A stretch of DNA of 64,000 nt from Halarcobacter sp. (GTDB taxonomy: Bacteria > Campylobacterota > Campylobacteria > Campylobacterales > Arcobacteraceae): the NCBI GenBank assembly GCA_030145305.1, contig JAQYVX010000005.1, positions 62,001 through 126,000 on the forward strand, in the 5' to 3' direction. Shown one piece after another: positions 39,091 to 46,921 of this stretch. Under the pieces are notes generated by a model. It had not been told where the DNA came from. It did no database searches and saw only the letters and a list, made by a program, of their open reading frames with translations. A program made the position numbers and the translations under genes. The stretch's first letter is position 1. The number at the start of each line of letters is the position of its first letter.

Positions 39091-39157
39091 CCCTCTTTAA
39101 TCCCCCTCTTTTCAATATAATTGTATATTAAAATTATATAATTTAATTACATGCTTT

Positions 39158-39184
39158 TATAATGCTACGAACATCGTATATAAT
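39158..39184 (+). promoter_or_regulatory. Promoter region of the M20/ATP-grasp/M14 operon
   Basis: Two possible -10 boxes are seen: TATAAT at 39158-39163 and again at 39179-39184, the second 32 bases before the first gene. Between them TACGA-ACA-TCGTA (39166-39178) is a 13-base dyad that could be an operator. This region separates the operon from the argG terminator, supporting independent transcription. Confidence 0.45.
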
Positions 39185-39216: not shown

Positions 39217-40308
39217 ATGAATTATATTAATGACTTAAAAAAAATTATAAATATCAACTCATTTACAAAAAACAAAGAAGGTGTTGATAAGGTTGGTCAA
39301 ATTATGTCTACTTGGCTTAAAGAGATAGGATTTGATGAAACAATATATATAAGAGAAGAGATTGGAAACCACCAATTATTCACCACAAAAAGAAAAGAAA
39401 ATCTAAAAAATATATTATTATTAGGTCATAACGATACCGTATTTCCTCCTAATACCTTTGAAGAATTTACCCAAGATAATAATTGGGTTTATGGTCCTGG
39501 CGTTTGTGATATGAAAGGTGGAAATATTGTCGTAGTAGAATCTTTAAGAAATATTTATAAAGAGAATAAAAATATCTCAAATATTGATTTTTTAATAGTT
39601 TCAGATGAAGAAAGTGGGAGTGATGATTCCAAATTTGTTACTTTAGATATTGCTAAAAACTATGATTATTGTTTTGTATTTGAAGCAGCAGGTAAAGATT
39701 TAGAGATAGTAACAGGAAGAAAAGGTGTTGGAACTTTTACTATAACAATTGAAGGAATAGCCGCTCATGCAGGGACTTCATATATAAAAGGGGTGGATGC
39801 AAACTTAGAAGCTTCATATAAATTACAAAAATTATCCCAATTAACTAATCTTGAACTAGGAACAACAGTAAATGTTGGAAAAATTGAAGGTGGAATTGGA
39901 GCGAATACTATTTCTCCAAAGTGCCAAATGATAGTTGAAATTAGATATACAACAAACTACGAACGAGATAGATTATTAAATTCTTTAAATGAAATTGTTG
40001 AAACTTCTTATATAAAAGGAAGTAAGTCAAAAATTGAAGGCTTAATACAAAGAGATGTTATGGAAGCTAATAAAAATCAAGAAGTCTTAATAAAGAAACT
40101 TGAAGAGATTTCGAATTGTAAAATTCTTACAGAAAAAAGAGGTGGTGTTAGTGATGCAAACCATGTATCTAGTTGTGGGGTTACAACGCTTGATGGCTTT
40201 GGTCCTTATGGGGATGGTGATCATACTAAAAAAGAAAGAGCCTTAAAAAGTTCTTTTGAACGAAGAATTGAAATGATGACAAAAATTTTAAGTTATTATC
40301 AAAAATAA
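39217..40308 (+). CDS. M20-family metallopeptidase (CPG2-like carboxypeptidase)
   Basis: A 363-residue cytoplasmic peptidase with the two-metal site of the M20 family: H71-x-D73 (GHNDTVFPP), bridging D98 (YGPGVCDMKGG), the catalytic pair E131-E132 (SDEESGSDD), E156 (FVFEAAGK) and H336 (GDGDHTKKE). The dimerisation lid domain lies at about 170-285. It resembles carboxypeptidase G2, which removes C-terminal glutamate-type residues; ArgE or DapE functions are less likely. There is no signal peptide. It is the first gene of a four-gene operon with two ATP-grasp ligases and an M14 peptidase, so a processing or recycling role is inferred. Confidence 0.85.
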   Translation: MNYINDLKKIININSFTKNKEGVDKVGQIMSTWLKEIGFDETIYIREEIGNHQLFTTKRKENLKNILLLGHNDTVFPPNTFEEFTQDNNWVYGPGVCDMKGGNIVVVESLRNIYKENKNISNIDFLIVSDEESGSDDSKFVTLDIAKNYDYCFVFEAAGKDLEIVTGRKGVGTFTITIEGIAAHAGTSYIKGVDANLEASYKLQKLSQLTNLELGTTVNVGKIEGGIGANTISPKCQMIVEIRYTTNYERDRLLNSLNEIVETSYIKGSKSKIEGLIQRDVMEANKNQEVLIKKLEEISNCKILTEKRGGVSDANHVSSCGVTTLDGFGPYGDGDHTKKERALKSSFERRIEMMTKILSYYQK

Positions 40309-40336
40309 AAAATAATCAAAATAAGGAGAGGGAAAT

Positions 40337-41278
40337 ATGGGGAAGAAAAAAATTGGTATGTGGCTTTATCAAAATGGTGGAGGAGACATTATACAAGAGA
40401 AATTAATTAAACAATTAAATAATAAAGGAATAGAAGTTATCCCTAATATAAACTTACGTGATGCTACAGCTGAAAATAGTAATATTACATGGAATGACAT
40501 AAAATTAGATAAATTAGATTTATTTTTCTCTTATAACGCTGGAGAACAGACCCAATATCAAATGTATTTATTTAAAGCATTAAGTAACATTCTTCCAACA
40601 ATTAATAATTTTAAGGCCTTCGAATTAACTGAAGATAAATTCCAAACTTCATTATTACTAAGAAAAAATAATGTCAAAACAGCAGATTATAAATTGTGTC
40701 ATAGGGATGATACTTTTCATTTAAATGAAATTATTAAACAATGGGATAAAATGGTATATAAACCAACTGACGGTTGGGGTGGAGTTGGTTTAACAAAAAT
40801 TGAGAATCAAGAGACTTTAGATATGTTATTACCTTTTCTAAATCAAATGGATTTACGATACTTTTATGTAGAAAAATTTATTGATTACGATAATACTGAT
40901 TTTAGAATTGATATTGTTGATGGTATTTTTGTTGGAGGATATGGAAGAAAAGCAGGAGGTAGTGATTGGAGAACCAATATTACTAGTGGAGGAAGTGTAT
41001 TTAAAAGAGACATTCCAAAAGAAGTCATTAAACTTGCAATTAAAGCTGCTAAAATAACTGGCCTTGAAATTGCTGGCGTGGATATTATATATGATAGAAA
41101 AAAAGAAGAATATCTTGTTTTAGAAGTAAATGGAATACCAGCATTTATTACTCCAGAACAAGAAAAAATTGGTATTGACTATAATGATAAAAAAATTGAA
41201 TTAATTGCTAACTTAATTGAAAGAAAAGTAAATAACAAAACTAAGAAAAAAGTAAAAGTAAAAAAAGGAAATAAATAA
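40337..41278 (+). CDS. RimK/LysX-like ATP-grasp ligase
   Basis: A 313-residue protein with an ATP-grasp fold. An N-terminal pre-ATP domain (IGMWLYQNGGGDII) is followed by the ATP-binding part with MVYKPTDGWGGVGLTK at about residues 138-153, FYVEKFIDYDNTDFRIDIVDG and the magnesium-binding GVDIIYDRK and YLVLEVNGIPAF near the C-terminus. The family makes amide or peptide bonds by activating a carboxylate as an acyl-phosphate (RimK, LysX, glutathione synthase, ArgX). The substrates are unknown. GGAGAGGGAA upstream is a good ribosome site. One base separates it from the next ATP-grasp gene. Confidence 0.85.
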   Translation: MGKKKIGMWLYQNGGGDIIQEKLIKQLNNKGIEVIPNINLRDATAENSNITWNDIKLDKLDLFFSYNAGEQTQYQMYLFKALSNILPTINNFKAFELTEDKFQTSLLLRKNNVKTADYKLCHRDDTFHLNEIIKQWDKMVYKPTDGWGGVGLTKIENQETLDMLLPFLNQMDLRYFYVEKFIDYDNTDFRIDIVDGIFVGGYGRKAGGSDWRTNITSGGSVFKRDIPKEVIKLAIKAAKITGLEIAGVDIIYDRKKEEYLVLEVNGIPAFITPEQEKIGIDYNDKKIELIANLIERKVNNKTKKKVKVKKGNK

Positions 41279-42793
41279 ATGAGTAAATTACCAAAATTAG
41301 GATTTTTATATTTAGATTATGTATTAAGATTTTTTGACCATTCAAACTTCAAAGGCTGGCCTAATAAAATTGAAACAGTTACATATCATTGGGGAAATGA
41401 TAAACAAAGATTTATAAATGAAGTAAAAGCCAAAAAAATTGATATTCTAATTGGGAATATTCCAGCAACTGCATATGAAACATTTAGAGAAATAGCAAAA
41501 GTTCTTCCTCATATAAGATTTGTTCCCTCATTAGAAACTCAATTTCCTAATAAATCTAAGGAAAATGTCACATTATTTTGTAAAAAACATGATATTGCAA
41601 TACCAAAAACAAAGATTTTTCATAATAATAAAAAAGATGCTTATGATTATTTAGAAAATAAGGCAAGTTATCCTCAAATTATTAAAAAAAGTTATGGACC
41701 ATCAAATTATGGTGGTTATTATGTTCATAAAGCAAATAATTTTAAAGAAGCTTATGCCTTACTTGAAAAAGAGAAATATGACCCTATATATACTCAAGAT
41801 GGAATTGATTTAAAATATTCTGGAGATTTAAGAGTAATGTTAATAGGCCATAAACCAGTTTGTGCTTTTTGGCGTTTCTCAGGCAAAGGTGAATGGATTA
41901 CAAATACCTCACAAGGAGGAACAATGTCATATGACAAGGTTCCAATGAATGCTCTTGAGTTAGCAGTAAAAGCTAGTAAAGCAGCAAAAGCAGAGTATTG
42001 GGCTTGTGATATTGCTATTGATTCAAAAGATGACAAACCTTATATTTTAGAATGTGCTACCGCTTTTGCAGCATTTCCTTATATTAGAGATTGGATTTGC
42101 CAATACTTAATGTGGGATTTCTCAAATGGTAAATTCCCTATGCCTCATGTACCATTATTTTCATGGGAAGAATTAGGAAAGATAGATTCTTCTTTATTAA
42201 GAACAATGAGACATATTGGATTTAGTAAATATAAACCATCTTGTGATGGTGAATATTTTATAAATGAAAAAGATACTTCTTTTGAAATGGAAAAAACATT
42301 ATTAAATAATCTAAATGATTACCCTGAAGAATATTCTTTTGATAACTTACCTGTACATGTAAAATTAGAAGACTTACAAAATAAAGATGTAAATGCGGAT
42401 GTAAAAATTAATAAAATTAATTTCAATACAGCTACCTTAACTGATTTAATGACTCTTCATGGTATGGAAGAAGACTTAGCAATAGATATTCAAGAATATA
42501 TTGAAGATAATATTGTAACTGATTCAAGTGATTTATTAGAATTAGAATCAATTGATCAACATACATTAGAAACATGGAATGAACACATTGATGATATGAG
42601 AGTTGATATAAATAAAGCAGATGAAACTGTTTTAAAAAGAATCAAAGGTATTGGTGCTAAACTTGCGAAAATCATTTTAGATTTTAAAAATAAAAATGAA
42701 GGCTTTAAAAGTATAGATGAGCTTCAAAAGATTGAAGGTATTGGTAAAAATAAACTAATGCAATTAAAATCTAGATTCAAAATAGGAGAATAG
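41279..42793 (+). CDS. ATP-grasp protein fused to two helix-hairpin-helix domains
   Basis: A 504-residue protein. Residues 1-300 form an ATP-grasp domain: QIIKKSYGPSNYGGYYVHK (lysine and glycine loop), DLRVMLIGHKPVCAFWRFSG, WACDIAIDSKDDKPYILECATAFAAF for metal binding. The C-terminal part has two helix-hairpin-helix units of the ComEA/PolC type: INFNTATLTDLMTLHGMEE at about 380-398 and VDINKADETVLKRIKGIGAKL with KIEGIGKNKLMQLKSRF. Such units usually bind DNA. A ligase joined to this module is unusual. The start is one base after the first ATP-grasp gene's stop. Confidence 0.85.
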   Translation: MSKLPKLGFLYLDYVLRFFDHSNFKGWPNKIETVTYHWGNDKQRFINEVKAKKIDILIGNIPATAYETFREIAKVLPHIRFVPSLETQFPNKSKENVTLFCKKHDIAIPKTKIFHNNKKDAYDYLENKASYPQIIKKSYGPSNYGGYYVHKANNFKEAYALLEKEKYDPIYTQDGIDLKYSGDLRVMLIGHKPVCAFWRFSGKGEWITNTSQGGTMSYDKVPMNALELAVKASKAAKAEYWACDIAIDSKDDKPYILECATAFAAFPYIRDWICQYLMWDFSNGKFPMPHVPLFSWEELGKIDSSLLRTMRHIGFSKYKPSCDGEYFINEKDTSFEMEKTLLNNLNDYPEEYSFDNLPVHVKLEDLQNKDVNADVKINKINFNTATLTDLMTLHGMEEDLAIDIQEYIEDNIVTDSSDLLELESIDQHTLETWNEHIDDMRVDINKADETVLKRIKGIGAKLAKIILDFKNKNEGFKSIDELQKIEGIGKNKLMQLKSRFKIGE

Positions 42794-42796
42794 CCA

Positions 42797-45385
42797 TTGA
42801 AACAACTTTATCGGTCATATGATGAATCGACAAAAATCTTTAAAAAATTTCAAGAAAACTATCCAAATAATTTCAAAATGGAATCTATTGGAAAGACTTG
42901 GGAAAAAAGAGATATTAATTTAATTACCATTTCAAAAGATATCAAAAGTGCAGATTCTAAACCTGCACTTTTTTATACAGGAACAATTCATGCTAGAGAA
43001 TGGGTAGGACATGAACTAGGAATTGAATTTGCAACATATATTTTAGAAAATCTAGAAAATGACCCTACTTTACAAGCATATTTAGAAAAAACAACTATAT
43101 ACATGGTTCCATGTGCAAATCCAGATGGATACGAGTATTCAAAAAATCACTTTTCTTTTTGGAGAAAAAACAGAAGAGTAAATGTAGATGGTTCTTATGG
43201 TGTTGATTTAAATAGAAACTTTCCAATTGGTTATGTAAAATCAACAGCAACTACTTCTAATGTCTATGGAGGACCAGAACCATTTTCAGAACCAGAAACA
43301 AGAGCATTAAGAGATTTTGTTGAGTGCCATGAAAATATTACTATTGCACTTGATTATCACTCACAAGGAAATGTATTTTTCCCAGCACATGATTTTAGAC
43401 ATGAAGATACTATTGATACTACAGATATGAATACTTTATGTGCAAATATGGCAGAAGAAATTAGAAAAATATCAGGTAGAGAATATGGTATTCATCAAGG
43501 GAAACCACCTACAAAATTAATTTCGGGAAGCGGCAGAGAGTTTTATCATTCTCTTGGAATTATCTCTAGTGTTGTTGAAGTAGGTACACGAAATATTTCT
43601 GATTATATGGATGATATGAATGAAAACTTAAGAGAACATATTCCTGCTTTACTAGCTGCTGTTAAAGAAGTTCCAAATTACTCAAAAAATAATTCTGTTT
43701 CAAGAGTTAACTCTTTTGAAATTACAGAGATTGGCTCACACCATGTAAATTTAAAATGGGATTATGAGATAAATAAGGATGTTTTCTTTGAAATATATAG
43801 AAGTAGACAAGATAAAAACTTTTGTAATAATTCAAACTTAATTGTAAGAACAAGTAACTTAGAGTTTAGTGATATTAATCTTACTTCAAATAAAGATTAT
43901 TATTACAATATTAGAGTTGTAAATAAAAAGACTTTTGAGAAATCTCCTTTTTATCCACAAATAAAACTTAGAACTGATTGTGATTATGATGAATTTAGTA
44001 GGACATATTATGCAAATTCCAAAAATACAGGTTATGTAGCAGAAAACTTAAATGACAATAGTAAGCATTTTGGAGTTAATTCACTTTTTGTTGGAATTGA
44101 TGAAAATAAAGGTATTTCATATGCAATCGTAACTGTTGATGTAAAGTCATTAGGAGAAGGTGCTCTTATTAAAGATGCTTCATTTAATCTTTATCCAATA
44201 AATAGAGTTTCTACAACTATTGAAAAATATGGTGAGTGGAATACAGGAATTGTAAATCAAGAAACAATGGGTGATATTACAAATTACGATGATGTAGAGA
44301 ATATGGAAATTTTACAATATGTAGGAAGACCAACCCAATCTCATCAATTAACACAAGGTATTTGGAGAGCTTGGAATTTTTCAGGAATGGAATGTAAAGT
44401 TCTACAAGAAGTAGCTGATAAATATGAAAAAATTGTATTTAGAATAGAAGGGCCTACTGAACTAATTATAGGACGAACTAAGCAAATGATGCAATGGGAT
44501 ATTGGATATGGAAAGTTTGGATATGGACTTACTTATAGACCAAGATTAGAATTAACATATACAATAAAACCTACAATTACGGAACTTTATCCAAAAGCTG
44601 TTTATACAGTTAGTAAAGAAAGTGTTATTTCTGATGAAATAACAGCAGGATATGATGAGCAAGGCAGAAAGATTTATTCTACTTTTGAATTTAATCTCTC
44701 TTCTTTACCTCCATATAATAGTACAATGATTACAAAAGCTTATTTTGAATTAAACTCTACAAAAATCTACATCAAAGATGATATTAGATTCCATTTAGAG
44801 TTTGTAGATGAAAATATTGAACAAAATTATGAAGACATTACAAATAGAGAAATTATTCAAAATGTTGGTTATGATGTTAGTGCAACTGAACTTAAAAATA
44901 ATCAGACTCAACACTTCCCTTTTGATAGTTTTTCAGAGATTACATTAAATGAAAAACTAAAAGCTAAAGCTGATATTTCTTTTGTTCTAAAACCAACTTC
45001 TTCAAAAAAAGCTAATAAAAGTAAAAGTGTATCATGGGAAGTAAAAAATAGATCTTTATCTCCTAAGCTTATTATTGAACATATTCCTAAAAGAAGATTC
45101 CCTTTAGAAAAAGTAAAAAATGTAAAACTTACTCAAGAAAATGGAAAAATAAAAATTAGTTGGGATAATCCAGATGATCCAGATTTTGTAGGGGTAAAAG
45201 TAATTAAAAATGCTTATAGAGAACCTTATTCAACTCATGATGGTCAAAAATTGTATTCAGGAGTAGATGATTACACCTTCGATGATTTTGGAGCAAAAGA
45301 TATAAATAAATATTATGCTGTCTTTGCTTATGACGAAGTACCAAATTATTCAGAACCTGTAATAATTGAATATAAAGGGAAATAG
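42797..45385 (+). CDS. M14 zinc carboxypeptidase with fibronectin and beta-sandwich tail
   Basis: An 862-residue protein starting with TTG, AGGAG eight bases upstream. Residues 1-300 are an M14 peptidase: zinc ligands H65, E68 (HAREW) and H188 (DYHSQGN), substrate arginine R140 (DLNRNFP) and catalytic E261 (VVEVGTRN). A fibronectin type III-like domain follows (about 305-395), then two beta-sandwich repeats (about 400-590 and 595-775) each ending with a RPRLELTYTI or SPKLIIEHIP strand, as in DNRLRE-like modules, and a last fibronectin-like domain. There is no signal peptide or membrane anchor, which is unusual for such tails. It closes the operon and is followed by a strong terminator. Confidence 0.85.
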   Translation: MKQLYRSYDESTKIFKKFQENYPNNFKMESIGKTWEKRDINLITISKDIKSADSKPALFYTGTIHAREWVGHELGIEFATYILENLENDPTLQAYLEKTTIYMVPCANPDGYEYSKNHFSFWRKNRRVNVDGSYGVDLNRNFPIGYVKSTATTSNVYGGPEPFSEPETRALRDFVECHENITIALDYHSQGNVFFPAHDFRHEDTIDTTDMNTLCANMAEEIRKISGREYGIHQGKPPTKLISGSGREFYHSLGIISSVVEVGTRNISDYMDDMNENLREHIPALLAAVKEVPNYSKNNSVSRVNSFEITEIGSHHVNLKWDYEINKDVFFEIYRSRQDKNFCNNSNLIVRTSNLEFSDINLTSNKDYYYNIRVVNKKTFEKSPFYPQIKLRTDCDYDEFSRTYYANSKNTGYVAENLNDNSKHFGVNSLFVGIDENKGISYAIVTVDVKSLGEGALIKDASFNLYPINRVSTTIEKYGEWNTGIVNQETMGDITNYDDVENMEILQYVGRPTQSHQLTQGIWRAWNFSGMECKVLQEVADKYEKIVFRIEGPTELIIGRTKQMMQWDIGYGKFGYGLTYRPRLELTYTIKPTITELYPKAVYTVSKESVISDEITAGYDEQGRKIYSTFEFNLSSLPPYNSTMITKAYFELNSTKIYIKDDIRFHLEFVDENIEQNYEDITNREIIQNVGYDVSATELKNNQTQHFPFDSFSEITLNEKLKAKADISFVLKPTSSKKANKSKSVSWEVKNRSLSPKLIIEHIPKRRFPLEKVKNVKLTQENGKIKISWDNPDDPDFVGVKVIKNAYREPYSTHDGQKLYSGVDDYTFDDFGAKDINKYYAVFAYDEVPNYSEPVIIEYKGK

Positions 45386-45410
45386 AGGCTTTCTCTATTT
45401 CCCTTTTTTT
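45375..45410 (+). terminator. Rho-independent terminator after the M14 gene
   Basis: A 14-base perfect stem (45375-45388 with 45393-45406), a GCTT loop and a run of seven T. The stem starts inside the last codons of the peptidase gene and clearly closes the operon. Confidence 0.93.
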
Positions 45411-45974: not shown

Positions 45975-46002
45975 AAAAGAAGAGTAATTATACTCTTCTT
46001 TT
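45975..46002. terminator. Bidirectional terminator between carbonic-anhydrase-like gene and dut
   Basis: AAAAGAAGAGTA (45975-45986) and TACTCTTCTTTT (45991-46002) form a 12-base stem with an ATTA loop. A-rich and T-rich ends serve both strands. The right arm includes the last base pairs of the dut stop region. Confidence 0.85.
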
Positions 46003-46921
46003 AAGATTTGGGATAAGCTTCTTCAAGTTTTGTGTATAGAAGATTGAAATCAATGCTTTCGTACTCTTCTAATATTGAAACCATAATTACATTATCTTCA
46101 TCACCATTCCATATTTTAATATAAGTACCTTCTTTATATCCATGGTCTTGTCTAAATTTATTTAAACAATTTTTACCAATATAAAGTTTTTGAAGCCAAG
46201 TAAATGATAAACCTGAAATTTTACAACATCTAAAGAACTGATCAATAAATCTTTCAATTCCACTAAATGAAGGCATATTCCCTGTCTCAATTGCTAAAGC
46301 AATATATGATAATTTTTCTGCTTCTTTTACCATAGGTTTAACATCAACATCCTCAATCGCTTCATAAATACAATGAGTATTTACTAAAGATACAGCTCTT
46401 GGAACATTTGTTTCTTGCAAAATATATGACATTAAAAAATGCCAAATATCTACAAGTTCAACATGAATATTATTCATATCTGGTTCAGCATTTATATTTT
46501 TCCAATGTTTCCATGGTGTTGATTCAATTAACTCTGCAACTTCCATATGAATACATCTTAACCAGTTTATATCTTTACCAAATTTATTTTGACCCAATTC
46601 CCAGTTCTTACCATTTGTAGAGTCGTTTAACTCTTTTTGTAATAAAAACATTTCTTCAAGTTTATGTGGAAAAGATGAAGCTTCTTCAAGAAGTTCAGCC
46701 AAAGGAAGACACTCTTCTATTAAGCTATCTAAATTAATATTATTTGGTAAATCTTTATCACCTTTTAATAAATGAATAATTAGTGAAACTGTATAAGGAA
46801 CTTCATCTTTAGCTTCCCATTCTAATATATCTGATGGAGTTACTCCAATATAATGTACAAAATCTTCAACTGTCAAAAAGCCAATTGTTTTTATACTATC
46901 TCTTAAATCTTTATATAACAA
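46001..46921 (-). CDS. dut: Dimeric dUTP diphosphatase with an extra N-terminal domain
   Basis: A 306-residue protein. Residues 85-300 match the all-alpha dimeric dUTPase family, with metal-binding motifs E127-x2-E130 (HMEVAELIES) and E155-x2-D158 (HVELVDIWHF). It hydrolyses dUTP to dUMP, limiting uracil in DNA. The first 80 residues are extra compared with the roughly 230-residue Campylobacter enzyme. They read as a small helical domain (FLTVEDFVHYIGVTPSDILEW, YTVSLIIHLL) resembling a helix-turn-helix. That role is unproven. It is monocistronic and ends in the shared terminator. Confidence 0.87.
   Translation of the reverse strand: MLYKDLRDSIKTIGFLTVEDFVHYIGVTPSDILEWEAKDEVPYTVSLIIHLLKGDKDLPNNINLDSLIEECLPLAELLEEASSFPHKLEEMFLLQKELNDSTNGKNWELGQNKFGKDINWLRCIHMEVAELIESTPWKHWKNINAEPDMNNIHVELVDIWHFLMSYILQETNVPRAVSLVNTHCIYEAIEDVDVKPMVKEAEKLSYIALAIETGNMPSFSGIERFIDQFFRCCKISGLSFTWLQKLYIGKNCLNKFRQDHGYKEGTYIKIWNGDEDNVIMVSILEEYESIDFNLLYTKLEEAYPKS

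Follow-up and report, generated by a model that had tools for sequence, protein, structure and literature searches.

The window analysed here is a stretch of 64,000 nucleotides from a Halarcobacter sp. genome of 3.03 Mb (assembly GCA_030145305.1, contig JAQYVX010000005.1, positions 62,001 to 126,000), and it contains, at positions 39217-45385, four consecutive open reading frames (ORFs) on the plus strand that encode an M20 peptidase, two ATP-grasp proteins (here named AG1 and AG2) and an M14 zinc carboxypeptidase. These four genes almost certainly form a conserved system that works as one unit. Regarding its function, a probability of roughly 0.4 is given to a reversible modification in the cytosol, in which acidic residues, most likely L-glutamate, are joined to a carboxylate of an acceptor and later taken off. 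According to this proposal, AG1 would convert this carboxylate to an acyl phosphate and then couple the amino acid; AG2, in which one metal ligand has been lost, would be a non-canonical partner of AG1, serving either as a regulatory subunit or as a further ligase whose chemistry is altered, and could carry a targeting tail. M14 would strip C-terminal acidic residues one at a time, and M20, which is nearest to the glutamate-releasing carboxypeptidase G2 (CPG2), would take off the last or the N-acyl-linked residue. Glutamate as the donor, the reversibility of the reaction and the role of AG2 are the parts of this proposal that we infer.

The notion of a single unit comes from the distribution of the genes. 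Among 298 genomes of the Campylobacterota, all four families were found in 30, four genomes have a partial set and 264 have none at the thresholds used (500 bits for AG2, with a single-protein query; E 1e-60 for M20, AG1 and M14, with profiles). Taken separately, AG2 is present in 31 genomes, M14 in 32, AG1 in 31 and M20 in 32. The partial genomes have AG2 and M14 (G218), M14 (G256), AG1 and M20 at the end of a contig (G105), or M20 (G061); G037, in which a 166-bit AG2 fragment containing stops was detected, was scored as lacking AG2. The Fisher p values for co-occurrence range from 1.7e-36 to 2.6e-41, and given that they ignore the kinship between genomes they are not proof. The four genes lie inside approx. 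6.5 kb in 27 of the 30 full-set genomes, and across the 30 the M20 and AG1 genes are collinear in 16 and divergent in 14. In the three genomes G009, G129 and G249 one member is found at a distant site with unrelated flanks, yet it has been retained; this member is AG2 in G009 and G129, where it is placed between two genes that we take from their sequence to be efp and dnaE, and M14 in G249, where it lies on another contig beside other genes. Therefore, the members are kept together even when they are not neighbours. At the argG-carbonic anhydrase site of G256 (locus L131) only M14 is present, M20, AG1 and AG2 being missing there, and this lone M14 has Lys at residue 247. An earlier reading of the window, made from the letters alone (the sequence-only reading), had set beforehand as its refuting test that the four genes do not co-occur in other genomes; the counts given above, together with a gene fusion described below, did not refute it.

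A scan of genome contigs detected 147 relatives, and the best 80 loci were used for analysis. All four genes are present in 58 of these 80, and 50 of the 58 show the simple order M20-AG1-AG2-M14. Extra copies were observed in L040, with a second AG1-AG2 pair after M14, and in L050 and L074, with two AG1 genes each. The flanks vary by lineage: argG and a carbonic anhydrase gene accompany the Arcobacter-type loci, and trmD/rplS the Sulfurimonas-type loci. Apart from these four, none of the gene families recurs generally across the 80 loci, transporters, carriers and other biosynthetic families included (genes of at least 60 aa within the flanks were considered; shorter ORFs were not clustered). 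The set was also detected in records of Photobacterium, Thiomicrorhabdus, Cycloclasticus and Desulfuromusa, that is, in at least three phyla by record title. Nevertheless, it is rare outside the Campylobacterota; at E 1e-30 an AG2 profile matched 5/398 genomes of the phylum of Thiomicrorhabdus, search centre included, and 1/247 genomes of the phylum of Desulfuromusa, namely the search centre. The Photobacterium locus L122 and loci L123-L126, from the phylum of Thiomicrorhabdus, have all four genes in three arrangements. In L126, M14 and M20 are fused in-frame in a protein of 1243 aa (M14 in residues 1-865 and M20 in residues 872-1232), and this single instance speaks directly for an association between the two unrelated peptidases.

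Trees were obtained by a quick method for only the 57 rows that hold all four genes. In all four of them, the nearest rows to the Thiomicrorhabdus set were records named as Helicobacteraceae, Sulfurimonadaceae or Campylobacterales, or L059, a metagenome-assembled genome named as Desulfuromonadales; for this reason it is suggested that the set may have moved between lineages as a unit. The tree distances of M20 and M14 correlate with r 0.87, those of M20 and AG2 with r 0.74, and those of AG2 and M14 with r 0.74. The set had no match in the phages or in the viral contigs searched, and the plasmid search gave a single match, to a 2.1-Mb Photobacterium replicon; likewise, the anti-phage defence models of PADLOC gave 0 matches for the four proteins at E 0.1. 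A division of AG1 into two subtypes was considered and rejected, given that the members split at 60% identity, but no alignment column separates them at 90%.

The acidic nature of the residues handled by this system is suggested by M14. Its catalytic domain (residues 1-297 of the predicted model, mean pLDDT 86.3) matches CPA4, CPB and CPO at Z values of approx. 32 (31.6 for CPO). Residues H65, E68 and H188 of the zinc-ligand motif HxxE...H, as well as the substrate-binding R140, are conserved in 59 of 60 rows with one gap each, and the catalytic E261 in 60/60; the catalytic residues are also invariant in a 46-row alignment. In a gapless alignment of SGSGREF with SGSSIDW of CPA4, Arg247 of M14 faces the Ile found at position 255 of the latter, which is the S1' specificity position; this assignment rests on the CPA4 alignment, since the sequence of CPO itself was not aligned. 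Residue 247 is Arg in 59 and Lys in 1 of the 60 rows, and Arg in 10 and Lys in 1 of 11 further copies compared by pairwise alignment. A search with residues 180-290 alone retrieved only chance matches. It has been reported that position 255 sets the specificity in the M14A family, and that CPO, with Arg255, cleaves acidic C-termini; likewise, of the substrates FA-Glu-Glu, FA-Phe-Ala and FA-Phe-Phe, only the first was cleaved by a Xenopus paralogue that has Arg (PMC9925722). Because of the Arg residue at the S1' specificity position, M14 is predicted to prefer acidic residues, which points to an acid-specific enzyme that would trim C-terminal acidic residues.

With regard to localization, the reading frame of M14 in the window is open for 863 aa, one codon beyond the ORF, so there is no room for a signal peptide. 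The frames of 32 genomic copies have 855-884 residues versus 861 positions in the model; the longest one (884) might fit a short Sec signal peptide, and most copies appear to lack the room for it. Other known DNRLRE domains belong to secreted proteins; therefore, the presence of one of them in the tail of M14 is unusual.

AG1 is, as judged by its motifs, an intact ATP-grasp protein. Its best match in NCBIfam is MptN, with 142 bits for a cut-off of 350, and it also falls below the curated RimK model (PRK10446, 57.2 bits for a cut-off of 331). No variation is seen at D249, E263, N265 or R190 among 53 aligned members, and R190 and N265 align with the catalytic residues R189 and N262 of RimK (structures 5zct/7qyr), which have been described to touch the fifth and last resolved glutamate of the bound chain (PMC10092738). 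AG2 is closest in fold to LysX/ArgX (5k2m) and to RimK (predicted model with a mean pLDDT of 77 and pTM of 0.53), and it keeps D244 and E258. However, the Asn of the metal motif has been lost, given that A260 pairs with N265 of AG1 in a profile alignment and the E-x-N motif reads E-C-A in 61/61 members. Since this Ala lies in an invariant ECATAF sequence, AG2 is likely a specialised partner, rather than a plain second ligase. The sequence-only reading stated that both ATP-grasp proteins keep their binding motifs, which holds for AG1 and not for AG2.

The C-terminal tail of AG2 is variable. At E 0.01, HHH_3 was detected in 29/61 members, HHH_5 in 33/61 and DUF1643 in 1/61; the latter corresponds to the Cycloclasticus AG2 (L106, 7986-9635), which has a C-terminal DUF1643 domain in place of the helix-hairpin-helix (HhH) repeats. 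No HhH match was obtained for AG2 of L122-L126. In Sulfurimonas-type genomes, a lone AG2 gene is located directly after efp (L102, L103, L108, L111, L127 and L129), and it is followed by dnaE in L108, L127 and L129; this could be a hint of a link to translation, or merely a position. EF-P was considered as a substrate and set aside as a lead, given that other lone AG2 genes (L100, L101 and L109) have other neighbours, and six EF-P tails end in KVK.

Regarding M20, the closest solved structure by sequence is that of CPG2 (1cg2, E 1.1e-29). Residues H71, D98, E131, E132, E156, H336 and R279 are invariant in 52 aligned members and were placed on CPG2 by alignment; we take them to be the ligands of the dinuclear metal site, the catalytic Glu and the carboxylate-binding Arg. 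Together with the conservation seen in M14, this bears out the claim that neither peptidase has lost its catalytic residues. CPG2-type M20 enzymes act on small substrates, and for this reason we lean towards a small peptide-like metabolite as the acceptor, in preference to a protein.

The nearest working likenesses of this set are RimK/RimB, the tubulin TTLL ligases with the M14D cytosolic carboxypeptidases (CCPs), and MyfA/MyfB, although AG1 and M14 lack features that define RimK and the CCPs. A bacterial precedent for a glutamate ligase accompanied by an eraser is provided by RimK/RimB (RimABK), where a ligase of the RimK fold coexists with a protease that removes glutamates, and even a hybrid RimB-RimK enzyme exists (PMC11957791); in contrast, RimB is a retropepsin-like aspartic protease, and the candidates for this role are here M14 and M20. 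The likeness with tubulin modification consists of an ATP-grasp writer, which we take TTLL to be, and a cytosolic M14 eraser, predicted here to be acid-specific. However, CCPs have a specific N-terminal beta-sandwich domain (PMC3940198), whereas M14 begins at the catalytic domain; the Pfam stretch covers residues 14-263, the structural match starts at residue 1-4, the matches are to CPA/CPB/CPO/CPT, and the N-terminal domain of the CCPs was not found. M14 resembles CPO of the M14A family in its fold and in the basic residue at position 255, associated with acidic C-terminal specificity (PMC9925722), but CPO is found in the animal secretory pathway (PMC6214572) and M14 has no signal peptide and has a conserved tail of approx. 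560 residues. In the case of MyfA and MyfB, two ATP-grasp enzymes cooperate on a glutamate chain (PMC8141765), a comparison that covers the ligases.

Several observations weigh against the addition and removal of glutamate by this system. The amino acids ligated by RimK-like enzymes include others besides glutamate, hence the main grounds for assigning glutamate are the M14 residue and the family resemblance; moreover, the residues on which M14 and M20 act could be unrelated. The tree distances of AG1 fit those of the other three proteins less well (r 0.50-0.52), and kinship among the genomes counted means that the co-occurrence counts cannot be treated as independent. Two further polyglutamate contacts of RimK, R64 and S68, which bind elsewhere along the chain, have Y66 and E70 as their counterparts in the alignment with AG1, from which it follows that the acceptor of AG1 is probably not a polyglutamate tail of the RimK type. 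In addition, BcCCP, a bacterial M14D enzyme with Lys in the pocket, gave only low cleavage of a glutamate test substrate (PMC3940198), showing that a basic pocket residue is no proof of deglutamylation.

If the acceptor were a protein, acidic chains would be written on and erased from specific proteins, as in the polyglutamylation of tubulin or of ribosomal protein S6, and the tails of AG2 (HhH or DUF1643) and the beta-sandwich tail of M14 would select the target. We consider this protein branch of the proposal rather unlikely. The fact that the AG2 tails vary on a constant core fits with it, and RimK/RimB (PMC11957791) and the CCPs are precedents; nevertheless, some genomes have AG2 tails that are either absent or not recognised, no additional family of at least 60 aa is shared by the loci in general, and S6 is not an obvious target. 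The C-terminus of S6 was looked for in 30 genomes (the full set is present in 14, absent from 14 and partial in 2), of which G145 and G287 were left out and 12 with the set were readable. In the window genome S6 ends in SDEAAKKAK, not in Glu, and in the five genomes of the Arcobacter family that have the set the ending is SDEAAKKAN or close to it, which is also the case in relatives that lack the set. A terminal Glu was found in 2/12 readable genomes with the set (G010 and G074) versus 1/14 without it (G015). Therefore, S6 is not supported as a substrate, and is excluded only for the lineage of the window, since S6 of G010 and G074 ends in Glu.

A bolder version of the protein branch, in our opinion quite improbable, is an acidic-chain code on nucleic-acid-linked proteins, which AG1 and the altered AG2, with its exchangeable HhH or other tails, would write and M14 (Arg255) and then M20 would erase; it would have an origin independent of TTLL/CCP and RimK/RimB, and would have spread between phyla as a unit. 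On the side of small molecules, it is conceivable, though doubtful, that reversible glutamylation is not involved, and that the two ATP-grasp enzymes synthesise a short non-ribosomal peptide (an osmolyte, a metal ligand or a cofactor tail) with the peptidases limited to its maturation or to the recycling of failed products. The two ATP-grasp enzymes MyfA and MyfB that extend the polyglutamate chain of methylofuran (PMC8141765) and the MptN match of AG1 are in agreement with this idea; against it stand the near-invariant pocket residue of M14, which argues for a defined trimming step, and the fact that, among genes of at least 60 aa in the flanks, none for transport, a carrier or another biosynthetic step recurs generally across the loci. 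Several of the named hosts belong to lineages that we take to be marine or saline, which also agrees with this idea.

Two other schemes are disfavoured. One is an amino-group carrier pathway like LysW/LysX/LysK, where an amino acid is protected by the ATP-grasp enzyme through attachment to a carrier protein, and an M20 enzyme releases the product. The best structural match of AG2 is indeed LysX/ArgX with LysW-gamma-AAA, and the combination of a LysX-fold ATP-grasp protein with an M20 hydrolase is shared; however, LysW (TIGR01206) was found in 0/20 genomes with the set (the control detected it in 4/14 known genomes, 3 of them over the cut-off), no carrier gene fits in the gaps of the window operon, and M14 presumably has no counterpart in that pathway, so we regard it as very unlikely. 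The other is the maturation of a graspetide-type ribosomally synthesized peptide, in which ATP-grasp enzymes would cross-link a precursor that the peptidases then trim. Some graspetide loci do contain both ATP-grasp ligases and peptidases (PMC8939145), but between the window genes there is no space for a precursor ORF, no further family of the size considered is general to the 80 loci (shorter ORFs, as stated, were not clustered), and the main text of the same survey does not contain the terms 'M14', 'M20' or 'carboxypeptidase' (PMC8939145). This scheme is highly improbable.

The features of the locus are summarised in the table. The gaps between the genes are 28, 0 and 3 bases, where the sequence-only reading gave 1 to 28 bases. 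The families that it assigned to the four proteins agree with the Pfam matches, and the hairpin that closes the operon does look like a terminator (7 terminator-like sites were detected in the region on both strands versus 1.5 expected). In contrast, its claim that the operon has its own promoter is not supported beyond chance; there is a candidate site, but such sites are fewer in the scan (34) than in shuffled sequences (42.9). One flank of the operon is a gene that we take from its sequence to be argG, and the other is a gamma carbonic anhydrase-like gene (207 bits for a cut-off of 250). Further away, a dUTPase gene at 46001-46921 encodes approx. 86 extra N-terminal residues ahead of the dUTPase domain, an extension also found in L033.

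Features of the four-gene locus in window coordinates.
Feature	Position	Strand	Basis
Promoter-like site TTTATA-17-TATAAT, upstream of the M20 gene	39156..39184	+	consensus scan, 10/12
M20 peptidase, CPG2-like, 363 aa	39217..40308	+	Pfam Peptidase_M20 4.9e-18 and M20_dimer
AG1, RimK/MptN-like ATP-grasp ligase, 313 aa	40337..41278	+	Pfam RimK 1.1e-22
AG1 E263-V264-N265, canonical ATP-grasp metal motif	41123..41131	+	53-member alignment, E and N invariant
AG2, divergent ATP-grasp, helix-hairpin-helix tail at the C-terminus, 504 aa	41279..42793	+	Pfam RimK 2.5e-15, HHH_3 8.6e-26
AG2 E258-C-A-T-A-F263, replacing E-x-N	42050..42067	+	invariant in 61/61 aligned members and 10/10 further copies
AG2 HHH_3 repeat, ComEA-like, residues 441-500	42599..42778	+	Pfam
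M14 zinc carboxypeptidase with beta-sandwich tail (DNRLRE, Fn3-like), 862 aa, TTG start	42797..45385	+	Pfam Peptidase_M14 2.4e-59
M14 Arg247, CPA position 255 (S1' specificity)	43535..43537	+	gapless SGSGREF/SGSSIDW alignment with CPA4
M14 DNRLRE domain, residues 594-760	44576..45076	+	NF033679, 34.2 bits, cut-off 34
Intrinsic terminator-like hairpin closing the operon	45374..45406	+	15-bp stem followed by T run

Overall, the earlier interpretation is partly supported. The anatomy of the locus is consistent with the idea that the set could make and then shorten a peptide tag or a non-ribosomal peptide, and the Arg of M14 suggests that acidic residues are involved; on the other hand, the HhH tail is not constant and AG2 is no plain ligase by motif. 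As for the proposed check that one of the genes could be an enzyme of a standard pathway, among the NCBIfam matches listed (for M20, the best 25 of 53), only DNRLRE reaches its curated cut-off for the four proteins. No published description of the four-gene set was found in the literature searched, from which subscription papers were mostly absent. Few cases are known of systems that combine a ligase and an eraser of amino acid chains, among them, as far as we are aware, those of tubulin, S6 and some cofactors. The set described here combines known enzyme families, and the proposal predicts that M14 would be acid-specific, that the metal site of AG2 would be altered, and that the product would accumulate when only the peptidases are removed.

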